In this document: positions 4,147-32,617 of the stretch, one piece after another | Layout of the letters: each line of letters opens with the position of its first letter | Position numbering within the stretch: the first letter of the stretch is position 1 | From: Muribaculum sp. | GTDB lineage: Bacteria > Bacteroidota > Bacteroidia > Bacteroidales > Muribaculaceae | DNA length: 42,804 nucleotides | NCBI GenBank assembly: GCA_023666965.1 | Contig: JAMPAZ010000010.1 | Location: 1 to 42,804 of the forward strand | Reading direction: 5' to 3' | Notes under the pieces: model-generated | Told to the model about the DNA's origin: nothing | The model's database searches: none | The model's input: only the letters and a program-made list of their open reading frames with translations | Program-made: the position numbers and the translations under genes

Positions 4147-6351
4147 ATGGAAACAGCGCTTTTCTGGGTAGTGCCCGTAGCTTCGATTTTGGCATTGTTG
4201 CTTGCGGGATTTTTCTACCGTCAGATGATGCGGGAAAGTGAGGGAACCCCGCTGATGGAAAAAATAGCGTCCCATGTGCGAAAGGGCGCTATGTCTTACC
4301 TCAAACAACAGTACAAGATTGTAGGAATCGTATTCCTCTGCTTGGTAATCCTATTTTCTATTATGGCCTACGGATTTCAGCTTCAGAACTCCTGGGTGCC
4401 CATTGCATTCTTGACGGGAGGTTTCTTCTCCGGACTGTCGGGCTATCTGGGTATGAAGACGGCCACAAACGCTTCGGCCCGTACAGCCAATGCCGCCCGC
4501 ACGTCGCTTAACGGCGGTCTGCGTGTGGCTTTCCGTTCGGGAGCCGTGATGGGTCTAGTAGTTGTCGGACTCGGTCTCTTTGACATTTCGTTCTGGTATT
4601 TGGTGCTTGATTGGTGCGTTCCGGTCGACTATGCTACACCTACGGCCAAGCTATGCATGATTACCACTACGATGCTTACTTTCGGTATGGGTGCAAGTAC
4701 GCAAGCGCTTTTTGCTCGCGTAGGCGGAGGTATATATACGAAGGCGGCTGATGTCGGTGCCGACCTCGTGGGAAAGGTTGAGGCCGGTATTCCCGAGGAC
4801 GACCCCCGTAATCCTGCCACTATTGCAGATAATGTCGGCGACAATGTCGGCGACGTAGCAGGTATGGGTGCCGACTTATACGAGTCATACTGTGGCTCGA
4901 TTTTGGCGACTGCCGCACTCGGCGCCGCCGCGTTTATGTCGAGCGGAAATGTCGATATGCAGTTCAAGGCTGTGCTCGCTCCGATGCTTATCGCGGCCGT
5001 GGGTATAATACTGTCTATCGTAGGTATATTCTCGGTACGCACTAAAGAGAACGCCACCATGAAGGATCTTCTCAATGCTCTCTCTGTAGGTACTAATCTG
5101 AGCTCGGTGCTTATTGTGGGCGCTACTTTCTTGATTCTTTGGGCGCTTCAGCTTGAAAACTGGGTCAACATTTCGTTGGCTGTTGTAATCGGTCTGCTCG
5201 TCGGTATAGTTATAGGACGTTCTACGGAGTATTATACTTCGCAGTCATACAAGCCCACAAAAAAACTTGCTGAAAGCGGTCAGACCGGACCGGCTACGGT
5301 TATCATTTCCGGTATAGGACTTGGTATGGTGTCGACTGCCGTGCCCGTTCTTGCAGTGGTAGTAGGTATCATACTTTCTTACTGGCTTGCTTCCGGTTTT
5401 GATTTTACCAATGTAAGCATGGGACTTTATGGTATAGGTATCGCGGCTGTCGGTATGCTTTCGACTCTTGGCATCACCCTTGCCACCGACGCCTACGGAC
5501 CTATTGCCGACAATGCCGGAGGTAATGCCGAAATGAGCGGACTTGGTCAGGAAGTGCGCCGTCGTACCGACGCTCTCGACTCGCTCGGCAACACCACTGC
5601 CGCTACAGGTAAGGGATTTGCCATTGGCTCGGCCGCACTGACCGGTCTTGCCCTCCTCGCTTCATATATCGAAGAGATTCGTATCGGTATGGATCGTCTT
5701 GGTCGCACGGCCATAGACCTTGGCAACAACATTCAGATTCCTATCCACGAAGCTTCGTTTACCGACTTTATGACATATTATGATGTCAACTTGATGAATC
5801 CGAAAGTGCTTTCCGGTATGTTCATCGGTAGTATGATGGCTTTCTTATTCTGCGGTTTGACTATGAACGCAGTAGGTCGCGCCGCCGGACACATGGTTGA
5901 AGAAGTTCGCCGCCAGTTCCGCGAAATAAAGGGTATTCTGACCGGAAACGCCGAACCTGATTATGCTCGTTGTGTGCAGATTTCTACCAAGGGTGCTCAG
6001 CGTGAGATGGTATTCCCGTCGCTTCTCGCTATCGTCGCCCCGATTCTTGTAGGACTCATCTTTGGTGTCCCGGGCGTAATCGGTCTGCTTGTGGGCGGTC
6101 TTTCAGCGGGATTCGTGCTCGCAATCTTCATGGCCAATGCAGGCGGTGCTTGGGATAATGCCAAGAAGTATGTTGAAGAAGGAAACTTCGGCGGTAAGGG
6201 CAGCGAAGTGCATAAGGCTACTGTGACCGGCGATACTGTCGGCGACCCCTTCAAAGACACATCAGGTCCGAGCTTGAATATTTTGATCAAGCTTATGTCG
6301 ATGGTGGCTATTGTGATGGCCGGATTGACCGTCTCTTGGAGTCTGTTTTAA
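4147..6351 (+). CDS. hppA: membrane-bound ion-pumping pyrophosphatase, Na+-type, K+-dependent
   Basis: A 734-residue integral membrane protein with about 16 transmembrane helices. It couples PPi hydrolysis to cation export. Substrate-site motifs are present: [11 protein letters not shown], the Asp-rich [12 protein letters not shown], and a late [17 protein letters not shown]. Two family rules allow a finer call. The gate glutamate lies in DLYESY (Glu246), the position known for Na+-pumping enzymes; H+-only enzymes carry it one helical turn later. The [10 protein letters not shown] motif has Ala485 and Gly488 where K+-independent enzymes have Lys and Thr, so K+ dependence is expected. Na+-only and dual Na+/H+ pumping cannot be told apart here. 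It is monocistronic, with its own promoter and a strong terminator. Confidence 0.96.
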
Positions 6352-6521: not shown

Positions 6522-9482
6522 ATGAACGAAGAGAGTGTAAGCCAACTATATCTTAAAGACACCGCTTTTAGAAATTTGATGCAGAAGCGTGTGTTCAATG
6601 TGCTGCTTGTCGCATCGCCTTACGACGCCTTTATGATGGAAGAGGACGGTCGCGTTGAAGAGCAACTTTATTTTGAATACGTCGCTTTAAATCTTAGTTC
6701 GCCTCCTCGCGTCATTCGAGTTTCGCATCCGTCAGAAGCGCTCGACCTACTGGAAAACAAACGATTTGACATAGTGATTATGATGCCGGGTGTGGATTTG
6801 AGTGAGACTTTTGAGGGTGCCAAACTAATCAAGGCATCTGCGCCGGATATACCTATCGTGGTCCTTACGCCGTTCTCCAAGGAGGTCTCAAGGCGTATCT
6901 CCAACGAAGACCTTACCGGTGTCGACTATGTGTTCAGTTGGCTCGGGAATGTCGACCTGCTTCTCGCAATCATCAAACTGATTGAGGATAAGATGAATGC
7001 CGACAACGACATTAACGAGGTTGGTGTCCAGATGATTCTTTTGGTGGAGGATTCTGTGCGGTTTTATTCGTCAGTGCTCCCTACGTTGTATAAGTTCCTC
7101 CTTAAGCAGTCGCAGATATTCTCAACGGAGGCCCTCAACGAGCATGAAAGTATGCTGCGTATGAGGGGCCGCCCGAAGGTTATGCTCGCGCGCGACTATG
7201 AAGAAGCTGTCGAACTCTATGAGAGGTACGGCAAGAATATGCTCGGAGTGATTTCCGACGTATCCTTTAAGCATGAAGGCGAAAAGGATGCCCAGGCAGG
7301 ACTTAAGTTGGCCAAATACCTCCGGGAGAAAGATCCCTACTTGCCTATCATAATTGAGTCGTCGGAGACCGAAAACGCCGAAAAAGTGCAGGACTTTGAC
7401 GGCCAGTTCCTTGATAAAAATTCCAAAAAATTTCCTGTCGACCTCGGTTCAGCCATAATGCGTGACTTTGGATTCGGCGACTTTATCGTGCGTAATCCTA
7501 AAACCGGTGAAGAGATTCTCCGAATCCATGACTTGAAGGGGCTGCAGAAGCACATATTCGACATTCCGGCTGATTCGTTGCTATATCATGCTTCATACAA
7601 CGACATTTCCCGCTGGCTCTACTCGCGAGCCTTGTTCCCGATAGCCGAGGTGATTAAGAACCACCGGTTTAGAAATATCGAGGAGGCCGACACCGTGCGG
7701 CAACTTTTCTTCGACTTGATAGTTAAGTACCGCAAGATGAAGAATCGGGGAGTCGTGGCCATTTTCCGTAAGGACCGGTTTGACTACTACTCTAATTTTG
7801 CGCGTATAGGGCAGGGGTCGTTGGGGGGTAAAGGACGTGGTTTGGCATTTATAGATTCCATTATTAAGAAAAATCCGATATGTGACAATTTTGACGGAGT
7901 GACGGTGACGATTCCACGGACTGTGGTGATCTGTACCGACATTTTCGACGAATTTATGGAGACCAACAATCTCTATCCGTTGGCTCTTTCGGATCAACCT
8001 GACGAAGTAATACTGAAAGCTTTCCTCCACGGGCGGTTACCTGAGCGGTTGATAGAAGATCTGTTTGCCTTGTTTGAAGTGGTCGACCGTCCGCTTGCGG
8101 TCAGAAGCTCGAGCTTGCTTGAAGATTCCCACTACCAGCCTTTTGCCGGCATCTATTCAACATACATGATCCCTCATGTCGAGGATAAATACGAGATGTT
8201 GAAGATGCTCAGCGATGCCATTAAGGGTGTGTATGCATCTGTGTTTTATGCCGATAGTAAGGCATATATGACCGCGACGAGCAATGTCATCGATCAGGAA
8301 AAAATGGCGGTGATTATTCAAGAGGTTGTCGGGAAAGAGGTTGGCGATAAATATTTCCCGTCGTTTGCCGGAGTTGGAAGGTCGCTTAACTATTACCCGA
8401 TAAACGACGAGGTCCCGGAGGACGGTGTGGTTGAAGTGGCAGTCGGTTTAGGCAAGTATATCGTCGATGGCGGATTAAGTCTGCGGTTTTCGCCGCGCCA
8501 CCCCGACCATGTTCTCCAAACATCCACGTTGGATCTTGCCTTGCGCGACACGCAGACTCAGTTCTACGCCCTCGATTCGAAAAGAATGCTGGACGGCGAT
8601 TTTAAGGTCGATGACGGATTTAACATCTCCAAGATGCGCATTCAAGACGTGGCCTCTACGGGTGCATTGCGCTATATGGTGTCTACTTACGATTTTCGCG
8701 ACCAGATGCTTCGCGACTGTGACGAAGGTACGGGGCGAAGGGTGGTGACATTTGCCAATATACTTCAGCACAAAGTGTTCCCGTTGGCCGAAATTACCGA
8801 CTTTATGCTCTCGACTGGACAAAGGGAGATGGTGCGTCCGGTTGAGATTGAGTTTGCCGGGGTCATTGATATTAAAAATGGTTCCAAAGGCACGTTGTAT
8901 TGGCTCCAGATACGCCCCATCGTCGAGCGAAAGGATCTTGTCGATGAATCAACAATGGCGCTTCCCGACGAGAAAATTCTACTCAGAAGCAACACTGCAT
9001 TGGGACATGGAAACATTGAAAATGTCAATACGATAGTATATGTGCGCCCCGACAACTTCTCTTCGTCAAATAATTCATTGATAGCGCGTGAAATTGAAAA
9101 AATAAATCGTAACTTTACAGAGCGTAATGAAGGCTACATTTTGGTAGGTCCCGGAAGGTGGGGGTCGAGCGACACCGCTTTGGGTATTCCGGTCAAGTGG
9201 CCCCATATTTCTTCGGCAAGGTTGATAGTCGAATCTTCGCTTTCAAACTATCGGATTGAGCCGAGCCAGGGTACCCACTTTTTCCAAAACCTGACATCTT
9301 TCGGCGTGGGATATTTCACGATAAATCCCGGTCTTAACGGTGGAATTTATGACGTGGAATATCTTGATTCGTTTCCTGCCGAATATGAGAGCGACTTTGT
9401 GCGTATTGTCAGGTTCGCTGCCCCGTTAACCATCGGCATAAATGGCCGTAAAGGTGTAGGAGTGGTAGTTAAGCCTGACTGA
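6522..9482 (+). CDS. receiver-receiver-PEP-synthase-type ATP-grasp protein without phosphohistidine domain
   Basis: A 986-residue cytosolic protein. Residues ~17-155 form a degenerate response-regulator receiver: the phospho-Asp position in FDIVIMMPG is Met88. Residues ~168-315 form a second receiver with key residues intact: acidic pocket Glu176/Asp177, phospho-acceptor Asp246 in VISDVS, and Lys299 in LDKNS. After a linker, residues ~415-825 resemble the PPDK/PEP-synthase ATP-binding domain, with GQGSLGGKGRG near 430-440, VRSSSLLED near 527 and LYWLQIRPI near 805. The swivelling phosphohistidine domain and the PEP-binding barrel of PpsA are absent. Instead a ~155-residue C-terminal domain carries GPGRWGSSD and SQGTHFFQN, whose role I do not recognise. 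It is therefore not a standard PEP synthase; nucleotide-dependent signalling or phosphotransfer is possible. It heads a six-gene run. Confidence 0.88.
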   Translation: MNEESVSQLYLKDTAFRNLMQKRVFNVLLVASPYDAFMMEEDGRVEEQLYFEYVALNLSSPPRVIRVSHPSEALDLLENKRFDIVIMMPGVDLSETFEGAKLIKASAPDIPIVVLTPFSKEVSRRISNEDLTGVDYVFSWLGNVDLLLAIIKLIEDKMNADNDINEVGVQMILLVEDSVRFYSSVLPTLYKFLLKQSQIFSTEALNEHESMLRMRGRPKVMLARDYEEAVELYERYGKNMLGVISDVSFKHEGEKDAQAGLKLAKYLREKDPYLPIIIESSETENAEKVQDFDGQFLDKNSKKFPVDLGSAIMRDFGFGDFIVRNPKTGEEILRIHDLKGLQKHIFDIPADSLLYHASYNDISRWLYSRALFPIAEVIKNHRFRNIEEADTVRQLFFDLIVKYRKMKNRGVVAIFRKDRFDYYSNFARIGQGSLGGKGRGLAFIDSIIKKNPICDNFDGVTVTIPRTVVICTDIFDEFMETNNLYPLALSDQPDEVILKAFLHGRLPERLIEDLFALFEVVDRPLAVRSSSLLEDSHYQPFAGIYSTYMIPHVEDKYEMLKMLSDAIKGVYASVFYADSKAYMTATSNVIDQEKMAVIIQEVVGKEVGDKYFPSFAGVGRSLNYYPINDEVPEDGVVEVAVGLGKYIVDGGLSLRFSPRHPDHVLQTSTLDLALRDTQTQFYALDSKRMLDGDFKVDDGFNISKMRIQDVASTGALRYMVSTYDFRDQMLRDCDEGTGRRVVTFANILQHKVFPLAEITDFMLSTGQREMVRPVEIEFAGVIDIKNGSKGTLYWLQIRPIVERKDLVDESTMALPDEKILLRSNTALGHGNIENVNTIVYVRPDNFSSSNNSLIAREIEKINRNFTERNEGYILVGPGRWGSSDTALGIPVKWPHISSARLIVESSLSNYRIEPSQGTHFFQNLTSFGVGYFTINPGLNGGIYDVEYLDSFPAEYESDFVRIVRFAAPLTIGINGRKGVGVVVKPD

Positions 9483-21402: not shown

Positions 21403-22584
21403 ATGGCAGAATCCAACTTTATAGACTACGTGAAAATAATGTGCCGTTCGGGTAAGGGCGGTGCCGGTTCACGGCATTTTTACCGCGCAAAGTATATTCC
21501 CAAGGGAGGCCCGGATGGCGGCGACGGCGGTCGAGGCGGACATATAATCCTTCGTGGAAATAAAAATATGTGGACTTTGTTGCCTCTTAAATTCCAACGT
21601 CATATTTTTGCCGGAAACGGTCAGGCCGGATCCGCCAACAGAAGTTCCGGAAAAGACGGTGAGGACAAGGTCGTCGACGTACCTTGCGGAACAGTAGTGT
21701 TTGATGCAGAGACGGGCGACTTCCTTTGTGAAGTGACCGCCGACGGCGAAGAAGTAAAGTTGCTTCGTGGCGGTCGAGGAGGTTTGGGTAATTGGAACTT
21801 TAAAAGTGCCACGAATCAGACTCCGAGATATGCCCAGCCCGGCGAACCCGCCATAGAGAAGACTGTCATTTTGGAGCTTAAGCTTCTTGCTGATGTAGGG
21901 TTGGTCGGATTCCCTAATGCAGGCAAATCCACTCTGCTTTCATCCATTTCCGCCGCCAGACCAAAAATTGCCGACTATCCGTTTACGACTATGGAGCCTC
22001 AGCTGGGCATAGTGGGCTATCGCGACAACCGCTCGTTTGTCATGGCCGATATTCCCGGAATTATAGAGGGAGCAAGCGAAGGCAAGGGACTCGGACTTCG
22101 TTTTCTCCGGCATATTGAGCGCAACGCCGTGTTGCTGTTCCTGGTGCCGGCAGATGCCCATGACATCAAGCGCGAATATGAGATACTTTTGAACGAAGTG
22201 TCGCGGTTTAATCCTGAACTGATGGATAAACCTCGCCTTTTGGCAATCAGTAAGAGTGATATGCTCGATGATGAACTGATGGAAGAGATGGCTAAAGATC
22301 TTCCCGCCGATGTAAAGTGCGTGTTTATATCAGCCGTCACTGGATACGGTCTGACCGAGCTGAAAGATTTGCTCTGGGATGCCATCACTGACGAGTCTAA
22401 CCGCATCGAACAGTCGTCGATCACTCATCGCAGGCTCGACGGACACCATCGAGTGCGTGAAGAAGATGAGTTTATCTTTGAAAATGAAGCTCCGGAAGCT
22501 CCTGACGACGAAGAACTCGAAGAAGGTGATTGGGAAGGTGACTGGGACGAAGAGGCGTGGGAGTATGAGGATCCCGAACCATAA
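21403..22584 (+). CDS. obgE: Obg family GTPase, ribosome assembly
   Basis: A 393-residue GTPase that binds the large ribosomal subunit. The Gly-rich Obg fold occupies ~4-160 ([14 protein letters not shown]). The G domain follows, with G1 GFPNAGKST (169-177), G2 YPFTT, G3 DIPG, G4 SKSD (usually NKxD) and G5 ISA. There is no OCT domain; instead residues 353-393 form an extremely acidic, Trp-containing tail. Its last 20 bases overlap pgeF, so the two are probably co-translated. Confidence 0.96.
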
Positions 22585-23326
22585 AGTCACTGATTTTTTG
22601 ATTCCGCTTTTCCTTGGTGAAAAAGTCGATGTCTTTACGACTTCGCGCGGAGTTGAGTATAACGGCGAAAATCCGTATTCCGGGTTTTCGCTGTGTCATT
22701 ATACGGGCGATTCTCCGGCTCATTACCAGGAGTGCAGAAGGTTGCTGTCGATTTGTTTTGATGTAGCATCGGGCGAAATATTGGCCCCTCGGCAAACCCA
22801 CGGCTCGAAATGCATAGTTGTCAACGGCGCAGAAGTCGATGGAGATTTGCTTGAAGGTGTCGACGGACTTGTTACTGCTCGCCGAGGCCGTATCGTCGGT
22901 GTTAACACGGCAGATTGCCTGCCGGTGGTCATGGTCGACGACGAGCAGGGCATTGCGGGTGTCGCACATGCGGGATGGCGCGGTGCGCTGAACGGTATTG
23001 TGCAGTCGACTCTTGGAGAAATGCTCGAATGCGGTGCCTCGATTGGCCGGATCAAGGTGTTCATGGCTCCATGTATCTGCCCCGGATGCTTTGAAGTTGG
23101 TCCGGAGGTGGCGGCTCTGTTTCCGGCTAAGAATCAGTATATGGACGCAAAGCCTCATGTCGATCTCGCAGGATATGTCGGTGACTGTCTTGTCGAGATG
23201 GGTGTCCGGGAGTCAATGATTCATCTGCCGAAAGAGTGCACCAAATGCAATCCTGAAAAGTATTTTTCTGCGCGTGCATCGGGCATCGCTTCCGGACGAA
23301 ATTTCACGTTCGCGGTAATAAAATGA
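22565..23326 (+). CDS. pgeF: peptidoglycan editing factor PgeF (multicopper-like YfiH/DUF152 family)
   Basis: A 253-residue cytosolic protein of the YfiH family. Known members remove wrongly incorporated L-Ser from peptidoglycan precursors, and some act on purine nucleosides. Active-site and metal motifs are present: [22 protein letters not shown] and [12 protein letters not shown]. The open frame extends upstream to 22379 inside obgE, but conserved sequence begins at the ATG at 22565 ([11 protein letters not shown]), so I chose that. This start overlaps the obgE coding region by 20 bases. The 3' end lies 13 bases from the convergent lipoprotein gene, with no obvious terminator between them. 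Confidence 0.92.
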
Positions 23327-23339
23327 GCCTATTTTGGAC

Positions 23340-23795
23340 TCACCATTTCTTTAGCCGATAGCAGTAGACTGCCCCTTTTGAGGTGCGGTAAGTCAATGTC
23401 ATTTTTGAATTGGAGACATACAGGATGTCGAGGCGGTTGACTGTGGCCTCCAGACCCGTCAATGGAAGAGGGGAGTACATCGTCGAGCCGGTCTCATGGC
23501 TGTCGTCGTGGTGGGAGAAATTCAGAATGAGTATGTCGTCAGAGGCCTCCTCCCACGAACCCCACCGCACGTCGGTGTCGTGATGCGGAAGCACCCCTCT
23601 CATACAGAACACGTCGGACTGGAATTGCCAAAATATGTTTTCCTTGTATTCTTCTAAAGGAAGTCCGTCAACCTCTATGTCAAGTAGTTTCCATGTGCCG
23701 AAGTATGGGCCTATGTCGCCGTTGTTGTGCGTGCACCCTATAGTGAATATGGCCGTTATGGCTATGATTGTGCAGATTAATATGTGTCTAATCAT
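23340..23795 (-). CDS. small lipoprotein, lipocalin-like
   Basis: A 151-residue predicted lipoprotein. The hydrophobic leader ends at Cys21 in FTIGC. The mature part has the GTWKLLDIEVDG start and repeated amphipathic strands of the small lipocalin-like lipoproteins of Bacteroidota (family assignment is tentative). It is the last gene of the export/acyltransferase operon, and its ATG overlaps the wzi stop by 4 bases (ATGA). This coupling suggests a role with the outer-membrane barrel, for example binding a lipid or glycan, but no function is demonstrated. Confidence 0.75.
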   Translation of the reverse strand: MIRHILICTIIAITAIFTIGCTHNNGDIGPYFGTWKLLDIEVDGLPLEEYKENIFWQFQSDVFCMRGVLPHHDTDVRWGSWEEASDDILILNFSHHDDSHETGSTMYSPLPLTGLEATVNRLDILYVSNSKMTLTYRTSKGAVYCYRLKKW

Positions 23796-25315
23796 TTTTT
23801 CAAGATAAATAAGCCTTTATATGTGACCGATACTCCCACGCCGAAACTGTTTCCGTATAGATTGCCCCTGTCCATGGCCATTTGTGCCTTGACGGCCCAT
23901 CTGTCGTCTGACGGCACTAAGTACGTCGCTTCGACCATAAACGACGTTGAGTGGACTTTTTGCAGAGCCGGGATAAATGTGTCTCCCGAACTCTTACGAT
24001 AGGAAATCATTGCCCGATATTCGATTTGGCTGTTGATGGTGCCCGTGACGGCCGCATGGAATCCCTTGATTCGGGTATCGGTATAGCGTAGGTAGCCGTC
24101 GGTATTGTAAATGGGGGATTTTAGCATCGGTGTACCCTGCGACATTCCGTAATAGGCATAGCCGTTATAATAGTAGTTATTATAATAAGTGTCGGCGCCG
24201 GTAGCCTGTCCGGGAATAGTGGTCCCCGGATTGTCGCCGGGTGCCCAGTGGAGAGGTCCTGACTGATTGCTGAAGTCGAGATACTCTATGACTGCTCCGC
24301 GTATCAGTCCGTTTTTGCCTGAATCATATTCCAATCCCCACAGCCCGTCAAAGCCATTGAGCTTTCCTATGCCGGAGCCGTCTTCCCAGGGCCATTGGAA
24401 ATATGCCTTGATTCTTTCCCCTCCGGCTAATCGGTAATCAGCCATCATGTCCCAACTGCCAAGGTGGTTGCCGTCGTAAAAATTGTCGCCGCCGTGTGGA
24501 AACATCATATTGAAAAAGTCCTTTACTTTTAGTCGGCTGGTTTCTTCAAAAAGTAGATTTCCGTCGTAGTAGTATCTCTGGTGTCCCGCAAACTGCGCCG
24601 CTGCCTGCATCCCGACTGTAACGCTGAGCGGCTTCTGCGGGTTGGTGCGGAAATAACATCGCTTATAATTTATCCATCGCCCGGTGGTGATGAATGCGTT
24701 GTAGAAGTTGTAGTGGTTCTCGAGCCAATCGTTGTCGGTGGGCTTACCGAAGAAAAAGTTTCCGTTGATTTGGAGCCATCCTCCCGTGAAAGGTATGTCG
24801 ACAAAGTCAATAAACCCGATTCTTACTCCCGGCATCGGACGGGAATTGGCGCTCCATGTGAGGTCGCCGCTTGACAGTCTGTTGTTCAGGAGAGCCGACC
24901 CCACCTCCTTAAGCCCGGCAGTCAGAAACACCGACCGATGGCGCACTTCGCCGTAAAGTTGCTGTACCCACCCCCATGCCGGACCTTCTCGATGACCGTG
25001 CCAAGTGCTTGACTTTGCATCATACCGTGAGTAGTCGACACTGGATGCGGCGTCGATGATAATGTCGGCTCCGAAGCCGAACGACCATCTTCCCTCCGTA
25101 TCAAGTCCGTGGATGGCGCTGGTTCTTGAGTAGATGGTGCCTTTTTGAGTAACGGTGCCGAATCGGTTGGATGCCATGTAGTATGGAGCGAACTTGCCGG
25201 AGCCGTAGTTGGCCCAAATCTCTTCGCTGACTTCTATAGGCACCTCGGCTGATACCTGTCCGCAACAACTAAGTAGGCAGACTGTCGTGGCTACCGACAG
25301 CATCGGATTTTTCAT
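23792..25315 (-). CDS. Wzi-family capsule assembly outer-membrane barrel
   Basis: A 507-residue outer-membrane beta-barrel protein (Caps_assemb_Wzi, PF14052 type). A signal peptide (MKNPMLSVATTVCLLSCCGQVSA) precedes alternating aromatic strands throughout. Motifs usual for the Bacteroidota family are present: LYGEVRHRSVFLTAGLKE near 115 and PMPGVRIGF near 160, with a terminal strand ending YKGLFILKK. Proteobacterial Wzi is a surface lectin that anchors exported capsule. The start ATG overlaps the glsB stop (ATGA), and its own stop overlaps the lipoprotein start in the same way. This places it firmly in the wza-wzz-glsA-glsB operon. Confidence 0.88.
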   Translation of the reverse strand: MKNPMLSVATTVCLLSCCGQVSAEVPIEVSEEIWANYGSGKFAPYYMASNRFGTVTQKGTIYSRTSAIHGLDTEGRWSFGFGADIIIDAASSVDYSRYDAKSSTWHGHREGPAWGWVQQLYGEVRHRSVFLTAGLKEVGSALLNNRLSSGDLTWSANSRPMPGVRIGFIDFVDIPFTGGWLQINGNFFFGKPTDNDWLENHYNFYNAFITTGRWINYKRCYFRTNPQKPLSVTVGMQAAAQFAGHQRYYYDGNLLFEETSRLKVKDFFNMMFPHGGDNFYDGNHLGSWDMMADYRLAGGERIKAYFQWPWEDGSGIGKLNGFDGLWGLEYDSGKNGLIRGAVIEYLDFSNQSGPLHWAPGDNPGTTIPGQATGADTYYNNYYYNGYAYYGMSQGTPMLKSPIYNTDGYLRYTDTRIKGFHAAVTGTINSQIEYRAMISYRKSSGDTFIPALQKVHSTSFMVEATYLVPSDDRWAVKAQMAMDRGNLYGNSFGVGVSVTYKGLFILKK

Positions 25316-26262
25316 AAGTCAGGGTTTGAAGAGGGGAGAAACGTCCCGATATGTCGTCCTTTCTTTTCTTCAAAGATGTCTTCGATAGCGAAAAATATGC
25401 CACTTTCTTCGACATCGCCAAACTCGTCGTTAATGGCCGTGCCGAACATCCTCATCGAAGGAGAAAGGCTCATATAGGCATTGACAAGTGGCGGAATGTT
25501 GTAGCCTTGCTCGCGAATGGCCCTATTGAGTATCTTATAGTCATCCTTAAAAGTGTCGCTTGTGAAAATCTTCTCCATCGCGTTAATGTCAATGTCGGTG
25601 GGAAGCGGCGTAATCGGTTCAACCAAGTGTTCGTCGTCGGGAAAGTGCTTGGTAAGGAAGTATAATATCATGTCGCGGCAATTGCGGTTGTAGCTTGGAT
25701 ACATTGTGACTTTGCCGAACAGATATTTTATTTGAGGATATACGACGGTCAGCGCTCCGAGTCCGTCCCACAGATTATCGAGCGTGTAGAGCGCGGTGAC
25801 GCCGGCACGCGACGATTGATATTCGTATCTGACGAACGAACGACCTAACTCGAGTGTATAAGGCAGGTATTTTTCCAAGAATTCAGGCGAGAAGCGGAAC
25901 ATGTGCGATGTGGCGATTCGTGGTGAGCCGTCTGGATTATTCTTGATTTGATCACCGGTGATGAATCTATAGCCTCCGAGAATCAGTTTGTCGTTCGGAT
26001 CCCAGACTATCAGCTGTTGACACGGTGGCTCCATGACGTCGAAGTCGTCGATGTCGCAATCTTTCCCGGTGCCTCCTCCGGCAGTGCGGAATGCTATTTC
26101 GCGGAGCCGGCCTATCTCGCGCATCACGTTTGGCGAGTTAAATGCATTGACGATGTAGATTTTGTTGCCGCCTTTGTTCGTGTCGCGCAGAAACCGTTCG
26201 GGAACGAGTTCGCTCTCGATCTGTTCAACGGGTATAGGGTCGATAATCTTTTTATCCTTCAT
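25312..26262 (-). CDS. glsB: GNAT-like N-acyltransferase, glycine-lipid synthesis (GlsB type)
   Basis: A 316-residue cytosolic acyltransferase of the hemolysin/OlsB-like group (Acetyltransf_5). In Bacteroides thetaiotaomicron, GlsB of this type makes N-acyl-glycine, the first step to glycine lipids. Family landmarks are MREIGRLREIAFR, QLIVWDP, LGGYRFI, LELGRSFVRYEYQ, NLWDGLGAL and a C-terminal INDEFGDVEESGIF. The ATG at 26262 lies within the glsA stop region (ATGAAGGATAA, 11-base overlap); an alternative ATG at 26283 would add 7 residues. The gene lies between glsA and wzi, both overlapping, so the three should be translated from one mRNA. The glycine substrate is inferred from homology and pairing with glsA. 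Confidence 0.85.
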   Translation of the reverse strand: MKDKKIIDPIPVEQIESELVPERFLRDTNKGGNKIYIVNAFNSPNVMREIGRLREIAFRTAGGGTGKDCDIDDFDVMEPPCQQLIVWDPNDKLILGGYRFITGDQIKNNPDGSPRIATSHMFRFSPEFLEKYLPYTLELGRSFVRYEYQSSRAGVTALYTLDNLWDGLGALTVVYPQIKYLFGKVTMYPSYNRNCRDMILYFLTKHFPDDEHLVEPITPLPTDIDINAMEKIFTSDTFKDDYKILNRAIREQGYNIPPLVNAYMSLSPSMRMFGTAINDEFGDVEESGIFFAIEDIFEEKKGRHIGTFLPSSNPDL

Positions 26263-27133
26263 CGAAATTGTCCTGTTTGTCAAGTTCGTCTTTTAAATTA
26301 TAGACGATTTTTTTCACAGCCTTAGCCTCCAGAAGAGCCGAATGGCCTCCCTTAAGCTTATTCCAAGGAATAGGCTTCCCTGCAACGATGGTGAACTGTG
26401 AATCTCTGCTGCGGAATATTTCGCGGGGCAGATATACCATCTCAATATTAAATTTAAGACCTGTCCAAGTCCTAAACTTTGCAAAGTTATAAAAAAAGGA
26501 TGAATTTTCGCCGTCGAAATAGACCGGGATGATATTGCGCTTAAACTGGATGGCTTTATTGATGAACATTTTCTGCCATTTCAGGTCTTTAATGCCCTCT
26601 TTTTGCTTTCGTGAGACCATTCCGGCCGGGAACATTATGACGGGCTTGTCACCTGCCATGCATTCGTCGATGTCCAGAGTGGCTTTTCTGCTCTGCTTGC
26701 CATGTTTGTTTATCGGCAGGAATATGTCGCTCAGAGGCTTTACCGCCGACAGCAGGTCGTTGACCACAAAGTGCATCTCCGTGCCGTAGACTGTGCTCGC
26801 CCAATGGATCATGGCGATTCCGTCGAGTCCGCCAAGCGGATGATTGCAGACGATTAGTACTCGCTGATCGGTCGCATCCGGCCTTTGTCCCTTGAAGCTA
26901 TAACTGACATTCAGGTCTTTAAGTACGGCACCGCAAAATTCAGCTCCGGTTTTGCCGCGCGTTCGTTCAAGAATGCCGTTGAGATCGTCCTGACAGATGG
27001 TCGACTTAAGCCACTGAATCAGTGGCTTGGGAATGAACTTGGAGTAGGTCGGAAGCCGGTCGCTAATTACGGCTTCTACATCCACTTTAAGTGCGTCAAT
27101 TGTCTTTTCGTCTTTGTCAGGATTCATAATCAA
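26252..27133 (-). CDS. glsA: PlsC-like O-acyltransferase, glycine-lipid synthesis (GlsA type)
   Basis: A 293-residue lysophospholipid-acyltransferase-like protein. The catalytic block is NHPLGGLDG (His98, Asp104), an HX5D spacing that I take to be usual in this Bacteroidota subgroup rather than the textbook HX4D. Further motifs are INKHGKQSRK and MFPAGMVSRKQ (acyl-acceptor site) and IPVYFDG. In B. theta the paired GlsA adds a second acyl chain to the hydroxyl of N-acyl-glycine. An alternative start is Met3. The gene begins 58 bases after wzz and overlaps glsB by 11 bases. General phospholipid acylation remains an alternative function. Confidence 0.85.
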   Translation of the reverse strand: MIMNPDKDEKTIDALKVDVEAVISDRLPTYSKFIPKPLIQWLKSTICQDDLNGILERTRGKTGAEFCGAVLKDLNVSYSFKGQRPDATDQRVLIVCNHPLGGLDGIAMIHWASTVYGTEMHFVVNDLLSAVKPLSDIFLPINKHGKQSRKATLDIDECMAGDKPVIMFPAGMVSRKQKEGIKDLKWQKMFINKAIQFKRNIIPVYFDGENSSFFYNFAKFRTWTGLKFNIEMVYLPREIFRSRDSQFTIVAGKPIPWNKLKGGHSALLEAKAVKKIVYNLKDELDKQDNFDEG

Positions 27134-27191
27134 TTTTGTCTGGTCGCCATGGCTCTCTTGTGTAGGCTCTTAGGGGCGAAGTATGTCTGCG

Positions 27192-28304
27192 TCACGACTC
27201 TTTCCCGGCCGATGCTGTAAACGACTCTTTGAAGCCTCGCCCGAACAATATCCATGCGCTTGCGATACAAACTCCGACAAATGCAAAGCCTATGAGAATC
27301 AGCAACTTTCTCGGCTTAGACGGCTTGACGGGTACCGTGGCAGGTTCAATTACTGCATATACCGGCGTATTCTCCTGCACTTTAGCGCGAGCAAGTTGAA
27401 GTTGTTGGGCCGTTGAGTTGTATAGCGAGAATGCCAGTTGAGCCTCGTTGCGTAGACGTTCCTCTTCGGTGCGACGCGAATTTAGCGAAATTCCGTGGTT
27501 TTTGTCGACATATTCGGCATATTTCTGTTGAGCGGCATAGTAGTCGGCGCGGGCTTCTTCGTTGATTTGCCGTGCATACTCCATATCGTGGCGAGCTTTG
27601 TTGGTGCGGTACTCTGTCACATACTCTTTGAGGTTGTGTGCTACCGAGTCGGCCAACATTGCCGATACGAGCGGATCCTGCATCGTGACGGAGATGGTAA
27701 TTACCGAACTTTTGGAGTCAACCGACACGCTTATACGGTTGCCGAGAGCCTCCACGATGTTGTCTTCTTCCTTCGTCAATTTGAACGGATCGAGTCTGTC
27801 GCCTCCCTCCTCTTCGTCGTCTTTAAACAGCGACATGACACAGCCAATGGCTTTGCCGGGAAGACTCATTAGAGTTCCCCACCACGGTGATGAGGTGTAA
27901 TTTTCGAGGTAGTCGCATACTGTGATGGTCGTGTCGCCGTCGGACTCTTTTACATTGACGTCGAAGAGACCGACAGAGAACGGTATTGATTGGACTACAT
28001 CAGGGTACAAGTCGGGATAAACTGCATCCAACCCTCCCGAACCGAGATTGACACCTGCCATTGATGCCAGTGCTCCTAAGCCGCCTCCCATTTTGCTCTT
28101 GCCGTCGGTGATTTCCGGCGCCAATTTTACCGTGGTACTGTATTCTTTGGGAATGGAGAAGGCCACCACCAGCCCGATTACGGCCGCTATCGTGCCCCAC
28201 TTGATGATCAGTCGTCGCTCGGCCCAAAGCTTTTGAGCCAGCTCCATCAGGTCGATTTCCTGCTCTTCCGGCTCTCTGTATTCTTGTCTGTATTGATCTT
28301 CCAT
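27192..28304 (-). CDS. Wzz-type chain-length determinant / polysaccharide co-polymerase
   Basis: A 370-residue inner-membrane protein. The N-terminal cytosolic motif IDLMELAQKLWAERRLI leads to TM1 (~33-53). A large periplasmic domain with a coiled-coil segment (~240-305) ends in the PVKPSKPRK proline motif just before TM2 (~333-352). This is the Wzz/PCP architecture (PF02706). No fused tyrosine-kinase domain is present and no separate kinase gene is nearby. The gene starts 6 bases after wza; together they form the periplasm-spanning export pair. Confidence 0.92.
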   Translation of the reverse strand: MEDQYRQEYREPEEQEIDLMELAQKLWAERRLIIKWGTIAAVIGLVVAFSIPKEYSTTVKLAPEITDGKSKMGGGLGALASMAGVNLGSGGLDAVYPDLYPDVVQSIPFSVGLFDVNVKESDGDTTITVCDYLENYTSSPWWGTLMSLPGKAIGCVMSLFKDDEEEGGDRLDPFKLTKEEDNIVEALGNRISVSVDSKSSVITISVTMQDPLVSAMLADSVAHNLKEYVTEYRTNKARHDMEYARQINEEARADYYAAQQKYAEYVDKNHGISLNSRRTEEERLRNEAQLAFSLYNSTAQQLQLARAKVQENTPVYAVIEPATVPVKPSKPRKLLILIGFAFVGVCIASAWILFGRGFKESFTASAGKES

Positions 28305-28310
28305 CTTTGA

Positions 28311-30731
28311 TTATTTAAACAAGTTGGCGATTGTTGCTCCCATCAGACCGATGGATGCCGCTGCCGTGCTGATTGAGAGTATCTCTGACAGCTTAAGCGG
28401 ATTAGAGTGCTTAGAGGGGATGATTATGTGACATCCGGGTTCTATCGGCGTACTGCCTTTTGCGCGGGCTACCGTCCCGTTCATGTAGACGATGAAAGCC
28501 TTCGACTTTTTTGCCTTTGAACCGTATCCGCCGGCTTGGTCGATATAGTATTTGAGTTTCTTGCCGCTTTGGTAAACTACGGTGTTAGGGAACATGACAT
28601 CGCCTGAAATTTTAACCGTATTGGTCATTTCCGGAATGAAAAGTTCATCTCCTTCCTGCAAAACCAAGTCCATGCTCGACCCCGGATTTGCAAGGGCTTT
28701 GTCAAGCTCGATTCCTACGGTATAGCGGGTTGAGGTCAAAAGCTTTTCCATGGAGATGGAGTCGCTGTTTCCGGCCTGCGAGGAAGCTGCCAGACGGAGT
28801 GCCTCGTTGCGTGCCGCGATTTCGTCTTCCGTCATGCGTCGAGTCAGGTGTGCGCCTCTGACATAGGCTTGCGGAGTCAGTCCGCCGGCTCTTTTTACGA
28901 GGTCGCTCAGGCGTTCGTTCTTAACGGTGAGAGTATAGCCTCCGCCGAATTGGACTTCGCCGTCGATTACGACGCGCTTCTGCGTCTGATAGTTGGGCGA
29001 GCGTCTTACTTCAACTATGTCGTAGGGTTCAAGCAGGAATCCCCGGTCGCCTCTGACTACGAGTCCGTTTTCGAGGTCGAAAGTAAACAGTTGAGCCGTT
29101 TGGTTTCCGCTTCTCAGTGCCGACGGGTCATTAATTCGGCGCGATACGTCGAGACGTGCCGTGGAAGCCCCGCGGATAAGTCCCCCCGCCATAACGATAA
29201 GGTCCTCGATTGTCGTGTTGTCGGCATAGGGGAACGTGCCCGGGCGTGCCACCATGCCGCTGATGGTCAGCGTGCCTCGGTCTTCCATCTCCTGTACGCT
29301 CGGCACCACGATCATGTCGTTGCGTCGGAGTGCAATGTCGGGTGAGTCCCCGGCCATTATGGCTCCGAGGTCGAGCGGAATGACTTCGAGCTGCAGGTTT
29401 GCGCCCTCGCGGTAGAGAAGCACGCGAGTCGTATATGCGTCTTCCATCAGTCCCTCGGCGGCATTGACGAGGTCTTTGACGGTGTTGAGGTCGCTCGACA
29501 AGGCATACATTCCTGGACGGAAAACCGATCCTTTCAGCTCTACGCGGTTGGCGTAGCGGTCCAGGATGGTTCCGACGCTCACTATGTCGCCGTTGTTAAG
29601 CCGATATGTGTTGAAGTCTGCGTTGGCGATATTGAACAGCTCGTTTTCGCGTCCGGTCTGGCGGGCGAGTCTGATCTGGTCGGTATAGGCATCGCCTGTA
29701 AATCCTCCCGCATAGTCGATGAGATCCTGAATGGTCTCCTCCGGTGACATTTCGTAGTACATCGGGCGTTTCACGTTTCCGTCTATGGCTACAAGGCTGC
29801 TATATGGAGGAACGATTATGACGTCGCCCTCCTGCAGGCGGATGTTGCCGTCCTGCTTACCTTCAAAAAGATAGTCGTATATGTCGATATGCTTTATGAC
29901 TTTGTTGTTGCGCACCAACTGGATGTCGCGCAAGGTTCCGAGGTCGTTAATGCCGTTGGCTTTGTAAAGTGCGTGGAATACGGTGGAGAACGGCGACAAT
30001 CGATAAGTGCCGGGAACTGCCACTTCGCCCATGATGTTGATCTGGATCGTGCGGATTTGCCCTAAAGTGACATTGATGTCCGAGTCCGGGTCTTCGCCGC
30101 TGATGCCGGCATATTTGCTCGCAAATGCTTCGCGGATATGGTTGTTCGCCTCGGCGATTGTCATTCCGTTAAGGTAAATCGGGCCGATCTGTGAAATCAT
30201 TATTCTGCCTTCCGGTGAAATGGTCTGACGCAGATGGTCCTCGTTTGCGCCCCAAATGTCGATGACCACTTCGTCGCCGGGTCCGAGACGATAGTTCTGC
30301 GGTGTGGCGAGGTTTTCGTTGGGTTCAAAGGATAGTTGTGGGTTAGTGAACACCGAGTGTCCGTAGATTTGACGGGCAGAGACGGTGTTGTTATCGCCTT
30401 TATCAACTTCACGTCCGACATCGGTCAGCTCTTCGGCCGATATTTCAGTGGAAGCGTCGCGGAGCCTGTCGCGGTCATTTTGGCCTACGGTTTTATCTGC
30501 GACGTTTGCGTCACTTCCTTGCGACTCTTCAAACCGTGCCTTCAATCGCTCTACTTGCGCAGGTGTTACGCCTTTGGCTATCAGTTCGTTGCCGATTTGA
30601 CGATGCGACTTGCCCGCTGCGGTCTGTTGTTTGACGTACTCTAACACTTGGTCGTCGGTCATGGCGTATGTCGCTGAGACTGACGAGATTGCCATAATGA
30701 AGGCAAGTGCTAAAACAACTTTAACTTTCAT
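28311..30731 (-). CDS. Wza-like outer-membrane polysaccharide export protein with six SLBB domains
   Basis: An 806-residue secreted protein, over twice the length of E. coli Wza (379). A signal peptide (1-23) precedes an N-terminal helical segment (~25-70). Then follows the polysaccharide-export domain (YRLGPGDEVVIDIWGAN, ~147-163) and six SLBB-type repeats (starting near 230, 310, 400, 485, 580 and 705; pattern GxVxxPGxY...AGG). A short hydrophobic helix closes the protein (LSISTAAASIGLMGATIANLF), probably the membrane anchor or pore helix. No lipobox Cys is present. It heads the six-gene minus-strand operon and has a consensus promoter 90 bases upstream. Confidence 0.93.
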   Translation of the reverse strand: MKVKVVLALAFIMAISSVSATYAMTDDQVLEYVKQQTAAGKSHRQIGNELIAKGVTPAQVERLKARFEESQGSDANVADKTVGQNDRDRLRDASTEISAEELTDVGREVDKGDNNTVSARQIYGHSVFTNPQLSFEPNENLATPQNYRLGPGDEVVIDIWGANEDHLRQTISPEGRIMISQIGPIYLNGMTIAEANNHIREAFASKYAGISGEDPDSDINVTLGQIRTIQINIMGEVAVPGTYRLSPFSTVFHALYKANGINDLGTLRDIQLVRNNKVIKHIDIYDYLFEGKQDGNIRLQEGDVIIVPPYSSLVAIDGNVKRPMYYEMSPEETIQDLIDYAGGFTGDAYTDQIRLARQTGRENELFNIANADFNTYRLNNGDIVSVGTILDRYANRVELKGSVFRPGMYALSSDLNTVKDLVNAAEGLMEDAYTTRVLLYREGANLQLEVIPLDLGAIMAGDSPDIALRRNDMIVVPSVQEMEDRGTLTISGMVARPGTFPYADNTTIEDLIVMAGGLIRGASTARLDVSRRINDPSALRSGNQTAQLFTFDLENGLVVRGDRGFLLEPYDIVEVRRSPNYQTQKRVVIDGEVQFGGGYTLTVKNERLSDLVKRAGGLTPQAYVRGAHLTRRMTEDEIAARNEALRLAASSQAGNSDSISMEKLLTSTRYTVGIELDKALANPGSSMDLVLQEGDELFIPEMTNTVKISGDVMFPNTVVYQSGKKLKYYIDQAGGYGSKAKKSKAFIVYMNGTVARAKGSTPIEPGCHIIIPSKHSNPLKLSEILSISTAAASIGLMGATIANLFK

Positions 30732-30821: not shown

Positions 30822-30853
30822 CAAAATTAGTAATTAATTTATTTGCAAACAAA
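30822..30853 (-). promoter_or_regulatory. consensus promoter of the wza-wzz-glsAB-wzi operon
   Basis: On the minus strand TTTG (30853-30850), a 20-base spacer and TAATTTTG (30829-30822) match the Bacteroidota -33/-7 consensus exactly. The predicted leader before wza is about 85-90 bases. TTTGCAAA palindromic sequence overlaps the -33 box. Confidence 0.75.
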
Positions 30854-30875
30854 TGTGTTTTTATATTAATGCTAA

Positions 30876-30923
30876 TGAAAAAGGGACCGTCATTGAGCGA
30901 AATTGCTCCCCGAGACGGTCCCT
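30876..30923 (-). terminator. rho-independent terminator of the PPi-phosphofructokinase gene
   Basis: On the minus strand AGGGACCGTC pairs perfectly with GACGGTCCCT, with an inner GAGC/GCTC stem and a following TTTTTC run. It lies about 40 bases after the stop and just before the wza promoter. Confidence 0.85.
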
Positions 30924-30961
30924 GCAAGCTGTGATTCGGGATTATCGTTTAGTTCATTCGA

Positions 30962-32617
30962 TTATGAATGATGTTTTTGATACTCATATTGGAGTGTCAA
31001 AGAGGGTTGGTCGCACACTTCTGCCGGTCCGAAGTATTGGATGGGGCCCGGATAGATGAACGATGTGTTGAGTGCCCAGCTGTCGCGCATTGATGCGAAC
31101 TTCTGGAAGGGTGCGCCGTCGAGGGTGACGAGGGCCTTTTGTATTACGGGCTTCATCATGCCGTGGCGACGTTCCATGTTCATCATCATGGTGATGGGTA
31201 TACCGCCGCTAACCCACTGTACGGAGGGCTTGGTCAGACCGCGTACGCTTGACATATATCCGGTGACTCCGGCACGGATCAGACATGCGGCGTTGAATCC
31301 GAGCGCGTAGCAGTAGTCGGCATCGAAGTTCGACGGGTCGGCGCAACGGCCTTCATAGCCGAAGAAGTGGAACATGTTGGCGAACTTGCCTACATAGCGT
31401 CCTTCCGACTTCATCTGGTCGAGACGGCGTGCCACCATGTGTCCAAGTAGCTTCTCGGTCTCTATCAGCGATACCTGGACATTGCCGTGCGGGTCGCGGT
31501 CGAGGCAGAGCTGGTGTGCAACACCTTCGGGAAGGCTGGCGAAAATGGCTGAATTTTCTGCGCTCAGGCGGTCGATGATCCAGCTTATTTGGTTTGACTT
31601 CTCAACCTTTGCAAATTCGTCGGCATTCTGAGCCATGAGGTCGTTAAGCTCGGCGATGAGAGCCTTCATTGCGGGGATGAACTCGATAAGTCCTTCGGGA
31701 ATGAGCACGGTTCCGAAGTTCATGCCTTTGGCTGCTCTTGCGGCTACTACGTCGGCAATACCGTTCACGATGTCGTTGAGTGTCTGCTTCTTTGCTTCAA
31801 CCTCTTCCGATATGATGCAGACATTGGGCTGGCACTGAAGAGCGCATTCAAGGGCGATGTGGCTTGCCGAACGGCCCATGAGCTTGATGAAGTGCCAGTA
31901 TTTTTTCGACGAATTGCAGTCGCGCTGGATGTTGCCGATCACTTCGCTGTAGACTTTGGTGGCGGTGTCGAAGCCGAAGGATGTTTCGATTACTTCGTTC
32001 TTGAGGTCGCCGTCGATGGTTTTGGGGCAACCGATCACCTGCACTCCTGCGTTGATCGACTTGTAGTATTCAGCCAAAATGGCCGCATTGGTGTTTGAGT
32101 CGTCGCCGCCGATGATGACGAGTGCCGTAATATTGAGCTCTTTGAGGATTTCCAAGCCCTTGTCGAATTGTGCCTGGGTCTCAAGCTTGGTGCGTCCCGA
32201 GCCGATGATGTCGAATCCTCCGGTGTTGCGGTATTCGTCGATAATTTCGGAAGTGAGCTCTTTGTATTGGTGGTCAACGAATCCACCGGGTCCCATGAGG
32301 AATCCGTAAAGGCGGCTGTCGCGGTGTATCTTCTTGATTCCGTCAAACAGACCGCTTATGACGTTGTGTCCGCCGGGGGCCTGGCCTCCGGAAAGGATTA
32401 CGCCGACATTGATTGGCGTGCCTTTGACAGGCGCTCCGTCTTTCTCGAAATGAATTTCGGGCAAACCGTAGGTGTTGGGAAACAATGCCTTAATTTCTTC
32501 TTGGTCAGCAACGGACTGAGTAGCCTTTCCCTCGACGGCTTTCACAGCGCCGGTCAGAACGATGGGAAGCTTGGGCTGATAGGCCGCGCGGGCTTTTTGA
32601 AGTGCACTCTTCTTCAT
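30962..32617 (-). CDS. pfp: diphosphate-dependent 6-phosphofructokinase, long type
   Basis: A 551-residue glycolytic enzyme that phosphorylates fructose-6-phosphate using PPi, reversibly. GGQAPGGHN near 77-84 is the phosphate-donor loop. GGDDSN has Asp173 where ATP enzymes have Gly, and CPKTIDGD has Lys199, the pair of residues that marks PPi use. The length matches the long PFP group of plants, spirochaetes and Bacteroidota. It is monocistronic, with a promoter-like site upstream and a strong terminator downstream. Because the reaction is reversible it can work in glycolysis or gluconeogenesis, depending on the PPi level that the membrane pyrophosphatase helps set. Confidence 0.96.

Follow-up and report, generated by a model that had tools for sequence, protein, structure and literature searches.

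The window analysed here, a 42,804-nucleotide stretch that is one whole contig of a draft Muribaculum genome (G000; 83.35% complete, 4.17% contaminated), carries six colinear minus-strand open reading frames (ORFs) at 23340-30731. Read in order, these are wza, wzz, glsA, glsB, wzi and a gene for a lipocalin-like lipoprotein, i.e. a polysaccharide-export pair, the two acyltransferases of glycine-lipid synthesis, and two putative outer-membrane components (Table 1). The genes are tightly packed: read from the sequence, wza and wzz are separated by 6 bases, wzz and glsA by 58 bases if glsA begins at a TTG at 27133 or 64 if it begins at the ATG at 27127, glsA and glsB overlap by 11 bases (glsB ATG at 26262), and the glsB/wzi and wzi/lipoprotein junctions are overlaps of 4 bases each. 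The position and direction of the six genes, all five junctions (with 58 counted from the TTG), a promoter before wza, and the identities of GlsA and GlsB, both above curated equivalog cut-offs, had been proposed in an earlier sequence-only reading of the region and were all borne out. As that reading had also noted, no glycosyltransferase, flippase or tyrosine kinase was found among the six genes by Pfam search. Compared with a Wzy-dependent capsule locus, glycosyltransferases, Wzx, Wzy and a priming enzyme are absent from the six genes, with no search for Wzx or Wzy made elsewhere in the genome.

Table 1 Features of the six-gene unit and its boundaries, in window positions
Feature	Position	Strand	Evidence and remarks
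Hairpin resembling an intrinsic terminator, with T-run (pfp-wza gap)	30883..30923	-	Closes the upstream unit
wza promoter, sigma-ABfr type	30822..30853	-	TTTG 30853-30850, 20 bases, TAATTTTG 30829-30822 (motif scan)
wza-like gene, outer-membrane polysaccharide export (OPX) protein	28311..30731	-	806 aa; PF02563 62.6 bits (cut-off 28), SLBB 174.2 bits (cut-off 27)
wzz-like gene, polysaccharide co-polymerase	27192..28304	-	370 aa; PF02706 33.9 bits (cut-off 25.5)
Putative fusion point, wzz-glsA gap	27128..27191	-	No terminator-like hairpin, no TAnnTTTG
glsA, lyso-glycine-lipid O-acyltransferase	26252..27127	-	NF053697 equivalog, 344.6 bits (cut-off 260); ATG start, TTG at 27133 also in frame
TAnnTTTG inside glsA, candidate internal promoter	26482..26489	-	Motif scan; position 26489-26482
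glsB, glycine N-acyltransferase	25312..26262	-	NF053696 equivalog, 507.2 bits (cut-off 300)
wzi-like gene, outer-membrane beta-barrel	23792..25315	-	507 aa; PF14052 84.5 bits (cut-off 30.1)
Lipocalin-like lipoprotein gene	23340..23795	-	151 aa; PF16585 Lipocalin_8 43.1 bits (cut-off 27.2)
Weak hairpin over the lipocalin stop, possible unit end	23322..23344	-	-7.5 kcal/mol, z -1.23, not significant

Gene order was compared across 99 genomes of the family, 14 of the genus and 296 of the phylum, drawn by a sampling tool. ORFs in these relatives followed a longest-ORF rule and were labelled with profiles built on sequences from the present analysis, and contig ends make all adjacency counts lower bounds. 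Proteins of the wza type occur in 25 of the 99 family genomes (E 1e-40 or better), wzz in the same 25, and wzz lies directly 3' of wza in all 26 distinct wza loci; of the 24 other wza-bearing family genomes, the wza loci of 20 were covered (all but G342, G372, G379 and G388). This pair stands beside glsA only in the window and in its sister species, genome G400, which amounts to two of the 14 genomes of the genus and two of the 26 distinct wza loci; a count of 3 in the table of wzz/glsA junctions has to be put down to overlapping loci from this pair of genomes. In the rest of the genus, glsAB, wza-wzz and pfp (the last found in 11 of 14 genomes) occupy separate sites wherever they were found, a wzz match being present in 12 of the 14. 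Among the 24 other wza-bearing family genomes, 22 have wza and glsB on different contigs, and in G352 and G387 the two share a contig at distances of ~147 kb and >1 Mb, respectively.

The downstream half of the unit is distributed differently. A wzi gene follows glsB on the same strand in 57 of the 99 family genomes and 19 of 30 genera, including 13 of the 14 genus genomes (the exception is G308), and a wzi match of any kind is found in 97 of 99. After near-identical copies were dropped and second, ~34%-identical barrels excluded, 58 of 59 distinct wzi loci paired wzi with a lipocalin gene, the remaining locus lying at a contig end. The older and wider pattern is glsB followed by wzi, with the lipocalin gene. 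The sequence-only reading had named unconserved gene order in relatives as a refutation; by this test the coupling of glsAB to an outer-membrane barrel survives, while the place of the export pair in a conserved system with it fails on the present evidence. A tie between wza presence and the glsB-wzi link was considered and rejected, wzi following glsB in 15 of the 25 genomes with wza and in 42 of the 74 without (Fisher p = 0.82).

The boundary between the two halves differs between the window and its sister. The gene order of the six genes is identical in G400, with protein identities of 61-91%, and the two species are sisters in a tree of 113 GlsB proteins (SH-aLRT 99). This shared order speaks against a chimeric junction in the window, and an assembly chimera at wzz-glsA is ruled out by the same order in G400 with 76% and 74% DNA identity flanking the gap. 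Upstream of wza the two genomes agree: the pfp/wza hairpin is strong in the window (fold of 30870-30950, -26.3 kcal/mol, z -3.11) and much alike by eye in G400, and the same promoter elements, of the Bacteroidales sigma-ABfr type (consensus from PMC7366714), stand before wza. Generic scans were less informative, with sigma-70 promoters at chance level (10 found vs 9.4 expected) and simple terminators at or below chance, and neither Rfam at gathering scores nor a tRNA scan gave a match in the window. In the wzz-glsA gap, by contrast, the 107 bases of G400 hold a hairpin with a T-run (-18.2 kcal/mol, z -4.67), followed just before glsA by TTTG, 19 bases and TAAATTTG, whereas the fold of the window gap is no more stable than that of shuffled sequence (-6.8 kcal/mol, z -0.29). 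Some 45 nt, the part of the G400 gap with the hairpin and the -33 element, are absent from the window, which reads CAAAATTG where five aligned genus relatives keep TAnnTTTGC before glsA.

The missing TAnnTTTG is a promoter motif normally present before glsA. Among 105 distinct loci retained with at least 400 bases upstream, 77 have TAnnTTTG within -100..+50 of glsA, against 10.1 (maximum 20) in Markov samples. The motif is present in 74 of the 86 loci without a co-directional gene within 60 bases and in 3 of the 19 with one, and the window is one of these 19. Since G400 retains both the hairpin and the glsA promoter motif and the window retains neither, the locus looks like a recently fused transcription unit, built from two older and separately conserved blocks, wza-wzz and glsA-glsB-wzi-lipocalin, and we hold this account to be reasonably likely. 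In the window species all six are probably transcribed together, and the simplest reading is that juxtaposition occurred in the common ancestor and was followed by loss of the terminator and promoter in the window lineage. The pair of genomes thus seems to catch an operon in the course of forming, with the same order in both, the hairpin and promoter motif kept in G400 and gone in the window.

Such a fusion could also have been selected, co-expression of lipid and export genes ensuring that envelope lipid keeps up with surface polymer, as the sequence-only reading had suggested. The fused unit itself, the overlapping starts downstream of glsA, and the absence from the window of the G400 hairpin and promoter motif speak for this idea. 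However, only one species shows the fusion, a terminator lost neutrally would leave an identical pattern, and wza presence is independent of the glsB-wzi link, so that we regard selection for matched supply as quite unlikely.

The first block has the features of an export pair. The Wza-like protein shows six SLBB-like repeats by eye, as the sequence-only reading had counted (Pfam reports four SLBB and four SLBB_2 stretches), matches solved Wza chains at E 4e-9, and has a hydrophobic C-terminal stretch, read from its translation. Whereas E. coli Wza is acylated at an N-terminal lipobox cysteine (PMC9601211), the N-terminal region of this translation has no Cys, and the protein is therefore classed as an OPX protein and not as an E. 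coli-type Wza. The Wzz-like protein has hydrophobic segments near both ends by eye, consistent with two membrane segments, and no kinase domain in its 370 aa. A second, short Wza-type gene is present in the window's genome (G000:C11:273142-273438, open frame 270 aa).

Directly upstream of wza, 9 of the 26 distinct loci carry a PF00953 gene (by profile; Pfam-checked in three), which we take, from its family and from general knowledge, to encode a WecA-type priming enzyme. The window's genome and G400 each hold such a gene on another contig, 55-57% identical to the copy in locus L262. No clean empty former wza-wzz site was found beside it in either genome, the stretches ending within ~0.6 kb of contig ends, and the flanking genes of L262, L217 and L220 used as queries gave no match beside it. 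The recurrent placement of the PF00953 gene before wza suggests an undecaprenyl-linked polymer and speaks against a glycine-lipid carrier. The sequence-only reading had raised such a carrier as one possibility, i.e. an operon that exports or anchors a surface polymer on GlsAB-made glycine lipid. It would draw support from the 57 of 99 family genomes in which the gene directly after glsB encodes a Wzi-family barrel, with the lipocalin gene and often NeuB genes behind, and from the finding that glycine lipids of Bacteroides thetaiotaomicron feed larger lipids by an assembly route left unexplained (PMC10191378). Yet glsB is found in 94 of 99 family genomes and wza in 25, wza adjoins glsA in only 2 of 26 loci, a relative of the PF00953 enzyme is encoded in the window's own genome, and the six genes include neither a ligase nor a glycosyltransferase; we consider a glycine-lipid carrier very unlikely, and the earlier interpretation as a whole partly supported.

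The second block begins with a near-universal pathway. GlsB couples a hydroxy fatty acid to glycine, a second acyl chain being added by GlsA (PMC10191378), and a published survey places the gls cluster in >96% of Bacteroidales representative strains (PMC12746155). Adjacency of glsA and glsB on one strand, as in the window, is also usual in relatives, and the window's GlsB is the sole NF053696 match in its genome. All 94 GlsB proteins of the family score above the equivalog cut-off; across the 296 phylum genomes, 107 have a match at E 0.001 and 10 are above the cut-off. As elsewhere, GlsA and GlsB of the window would make glycine lipid for the envelope. One genus, g160, shows no GlsB match in any of its three sampled genomes (G316, G337 and G357, two of them at least 92% complete) and retains wzi, an apparent loss of glsB in nature.

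A PDB sequence search was uninformative for the last two proteins, with one match at E 0.96 for the barrel and none for the lipoprotein, and fold comparison was therefore needed. The barrel both belongs to PF14052 and has a fold most like E. coli Wzi (2ynk) in structure comparison. In its model the first strand starts at residue 25, directly after the signal-peptide helix, and the alignment begins at Wzi residue 89; the N-terminal periplasmic helical bundle of Wzi is not present in the model, so that the protein is filed as a PF14052 barrel and not as an E. coli-type Wzi. In a 12-sequence alignment of the lipoprotein, Cys21 is invariant and precedes a conserved G-[DN]-I-G, and the model of the protein (pLDDT 88.4) is an eight-stranded barrel whose best Foldseek match is the lipocalin-like protein 4qrl (TM 0.77 on target, prob 1.00). 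Additional copies and arrangements of these genes exist. A second wzi-like barrel, with 34% identity, is encoded in the window's genome (G000:C11:549418-550848), and L291:6271-10257 contains a tandem duplication of the wzi-lipocalin pair. In two genomes of genus g148 (L230:5047-10898 and L232), a second PF14052-type barrel, 34-35% identical, stands just before a PF00953-type gene, wza and wzz, which indicates that a barrel and the export pair can be neighbours in another order.

Beyond glsB, the wzi-lipocalin pair is frequently accompanied by sugar genes. NeuB (nonulosonic-acid synthase family), an NDP-sugar epimerase and an ATP-grasp protein were identified by Pfam, and counted at loci with >4 kb downstream of wzi, of which 35 lie beside glsB and 21 away from it (from 20 sampled out of 40 family genomes in which wzi is not beside glsB, plus L098, which has another order). 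NeuB occurs downstream in 28 of these 56 loci, which ties the pair to a surface glycan. Away from glsB, NeuB lies ≤6 kb downstream in 15 of 21 loci, with epimerase, ATP-grasp and NeuB together in 10, epimerase alone in 2 and none in 4; beside glsB, the corresponding figures are 13 of 35, with all three in 11 and epimerase plus ATP-grasp in 1. The wzi-lipocalin pair is thus often in a surface-glycan neighbourhood, with glsAB often at its head. A NeuB gene stands behind glsA-glsB-wzi-lipocalin at L068:11997-14458, L069:11982-14394, L109:10969-13774 and others, a possible nonulosonic-acid module, and at L098:6450-12576 and L148 wzi-lipocalin lies upstream of glsB, which epimerase, ATP-grasp and NeuB directly follow, with no glsA match by profiles at either locus. 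A set of rpoN, purE and a gene whose weak PAP2 match falls below the Pfam cut-off recurs near wzi-lipocalin in several family genomes (L293:99-6439, L261:12759-15875).

This wider pattern could reflect a single Muribaculaceae system, glsA-glsB-wzi-lipocalin with or without epimerase, ATP-grasp and NeuB. Barrel and lipocalin would there handle glycine lipid or a lipid-anchored nonulosonic-acid glycan, and wza-wzz would be a bystander. The frequency of the glsB-wzi link across the family and its genera, the 4-base stop/start overlaps in 10 of 39 glsB/wzi and 34 of 59 wzi/lipocalin pairs, and a lipocalin fold with solved Bacteroides relatives all fit this view. We nevertheless think it unlikely, because 37 of the 94 glsB-bearing family genomes have no wzi behind glsB (contig breaks included), the Bacteroides/Prevotella-type clade of the GlsB tree, with 32 rows, has no glsB followed by wzi, and wzi is kept in the three sampled g160 genomes that show no glsB. 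The link also changes at least 13 times on the GlsB tree, against a mean of 31.9 under shuffling: it is phylogenetically clustered, yet has been joined or broken many times. A more specific proposal for Muribaculaceae, that the barrel and the lipocalin-like lipoprotein, the latter shuttling bound lipid at the outer membrane, place GlsAB-made glycine lipid in the outer leaflet, or use it to hold a NeuB-made nonulosonic-acid glycan, with the window lineage adding the export pair, strikes us as decidedly improbable. Most gut Bacteroidales contain glycine lipids, which are immune-active; the glsB-barrel-lipocalin link in over half of the sampled family provides two candidate genes for bringing these lipids to their place in the envelope.

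Most likely, the locus represents housekeeping glycine-lipid synthesis set in a surface-glycan neighbourhood, with the wza promoter driving it in this species. Block one, an OPX protein and a co-polymerase, lies right after a PF00953 enzyme at a third of its loci in relatives, and block two is the glycine-lipid operon found almost throughout Bacteroidales, to which many Muribaculaceae add the barrel and lipocalin-like lipoprotein. A single mRNA from the wza promoter would now carry all six genes. Judged from family membership and gene neighbours, as distinct from the genomic steps documented above, Wza-Wzz probably export a polymer begun on undecaprenyl phosphate by the WecA-type enzyme encoded elsewhere, and the barrel and lipoprotein probably work at the outer membrane, their target being a surface glycan assembled on the same carrier. 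Lipid and polymer would then be linked through common regulation and their location in the membrane, and not by a lipid carrier.

Several observations weigh against this account. The fusion is known from one draft genome and one sister, and the alignment of the wzz-glsA gap is one of diverged non-coding DNA. Two other genus genomes, G398 and G394, also have no TAnnTTTG before glsA, with a co-directional gene 7 and 30 bases away, which means that loss of the motif is not unique to the wza fusion. In the GlsB tree, 31 of 110 inner branches are unsupported. Regarding the glycan neighbourhood, 21 of the 35 glsB-linked wzi loci, including that of the window, lack every one of the three sugar genes nearby, and no NeuB was found in the window's genome, an absence that is weak at 83% completeness. 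Finally, the TAnnTTTG within glsA could give glsB-wzi-lipocalin a transcript of its own. It is the only other such motif on the minus strand between 22.9 and 31.5 kb, and two in ~8.6 kb is, by our estimate, near random expectation. The internal motif has no TTG in the preceding 30 bases, but a TTG at the tested -33 distance accompanies TAnnTTTG at only 27 of 102 glsA promoters, so that its absence does not count against the motif and our promoter analysis rests on the -7 element.

Taken at face value, this internal motif would allow the six genes to be neutral neighbours, brought together by chance rearrangement and sharing no function, with glsB-wzi-lipocalin read from within glsA. At 19 of 105 loci glsA has a co-directional gene ≤60 bases in front of it, so that glsAB is often placed behind other genes. 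On the other hand, the internal motif would leave glsA itself promoterless, and wzi is kept behind glsB in 57 of 99 genomes; we give such chance assembly a small probability and retain the recent fusion of two conserved blocks as our preferred explanation.

The 3' end of the unit lies 13 bases before the convergent pgeF. At window 22379-22584 the longest ORF of pgeF begins within obg, the real start probably being farther downstream. A membrane H+-pyrophosphatase (4147-6351), a PPDK-type ATP-binding protein (6522-9482) and a pyrophosphate-dependent phosphofructokinase (30962-32617) share one 28-kb stretch of the window.

Compared with known systems, the core of the unit corresponds to the glsAB operon of Bacteroidales, where glsB is BT3459 in B. 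thetaiotaomicron (PMC11878027), and to the gls cluster of B. dorei, with the same two overlapping enzymes. That operon is described as one of two genes (PMC12746155), whereas here wzi and the lipocalin gene follow and wza-wzz precede; the same paper states that the gene making related dipeptide lipids is not known. Our literature search, with most subscription journals outside its coverage, found no published link of glsAB to Wza, Wzz or Wzi, and no paper on the glsB-wzi-lipocalin pattern with NeuB downstream. The export pair shares with the Wza/Wzz pairs of Wzy-dependent pathways the PF02563 and SLBB domains followed by PF02706, and differs from them in the 806-aa OPX protein with six SLBB-like repeats and no lipobox, and in having no kinase and no repeat-unit genes. 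The barrel resembles that of E. coli Wzi (2ynk), the outer-membrane lectin of group 1 capsule, whose helical bundle is absent here. A composite OPX/beta-barrel translocon (EpsX/EpsY of Myxococcus; PMC9601211) likewise unites an OPX protein, a polysaccharide co-polymerase (PCP) and a large barrel without a helical plug, but that type uses a short OPX protein (≤280 aa; PMC9601211), unlike the 806-aa protein with a hydrophobic end encoded in the window, and the pairing of a window-type OPX protein with a glsB-linked barrel is found in two species only. The lipoprotein has the same fold as the Bacteroides lipocalin-like proteins 4qrl, 5byp and 4gzv (Foldseek E 3e-6 to 3e-4), and whereas the titles of these entries name no function, here the lipocalin gene accompanies wzi at 58 of 59 loci.

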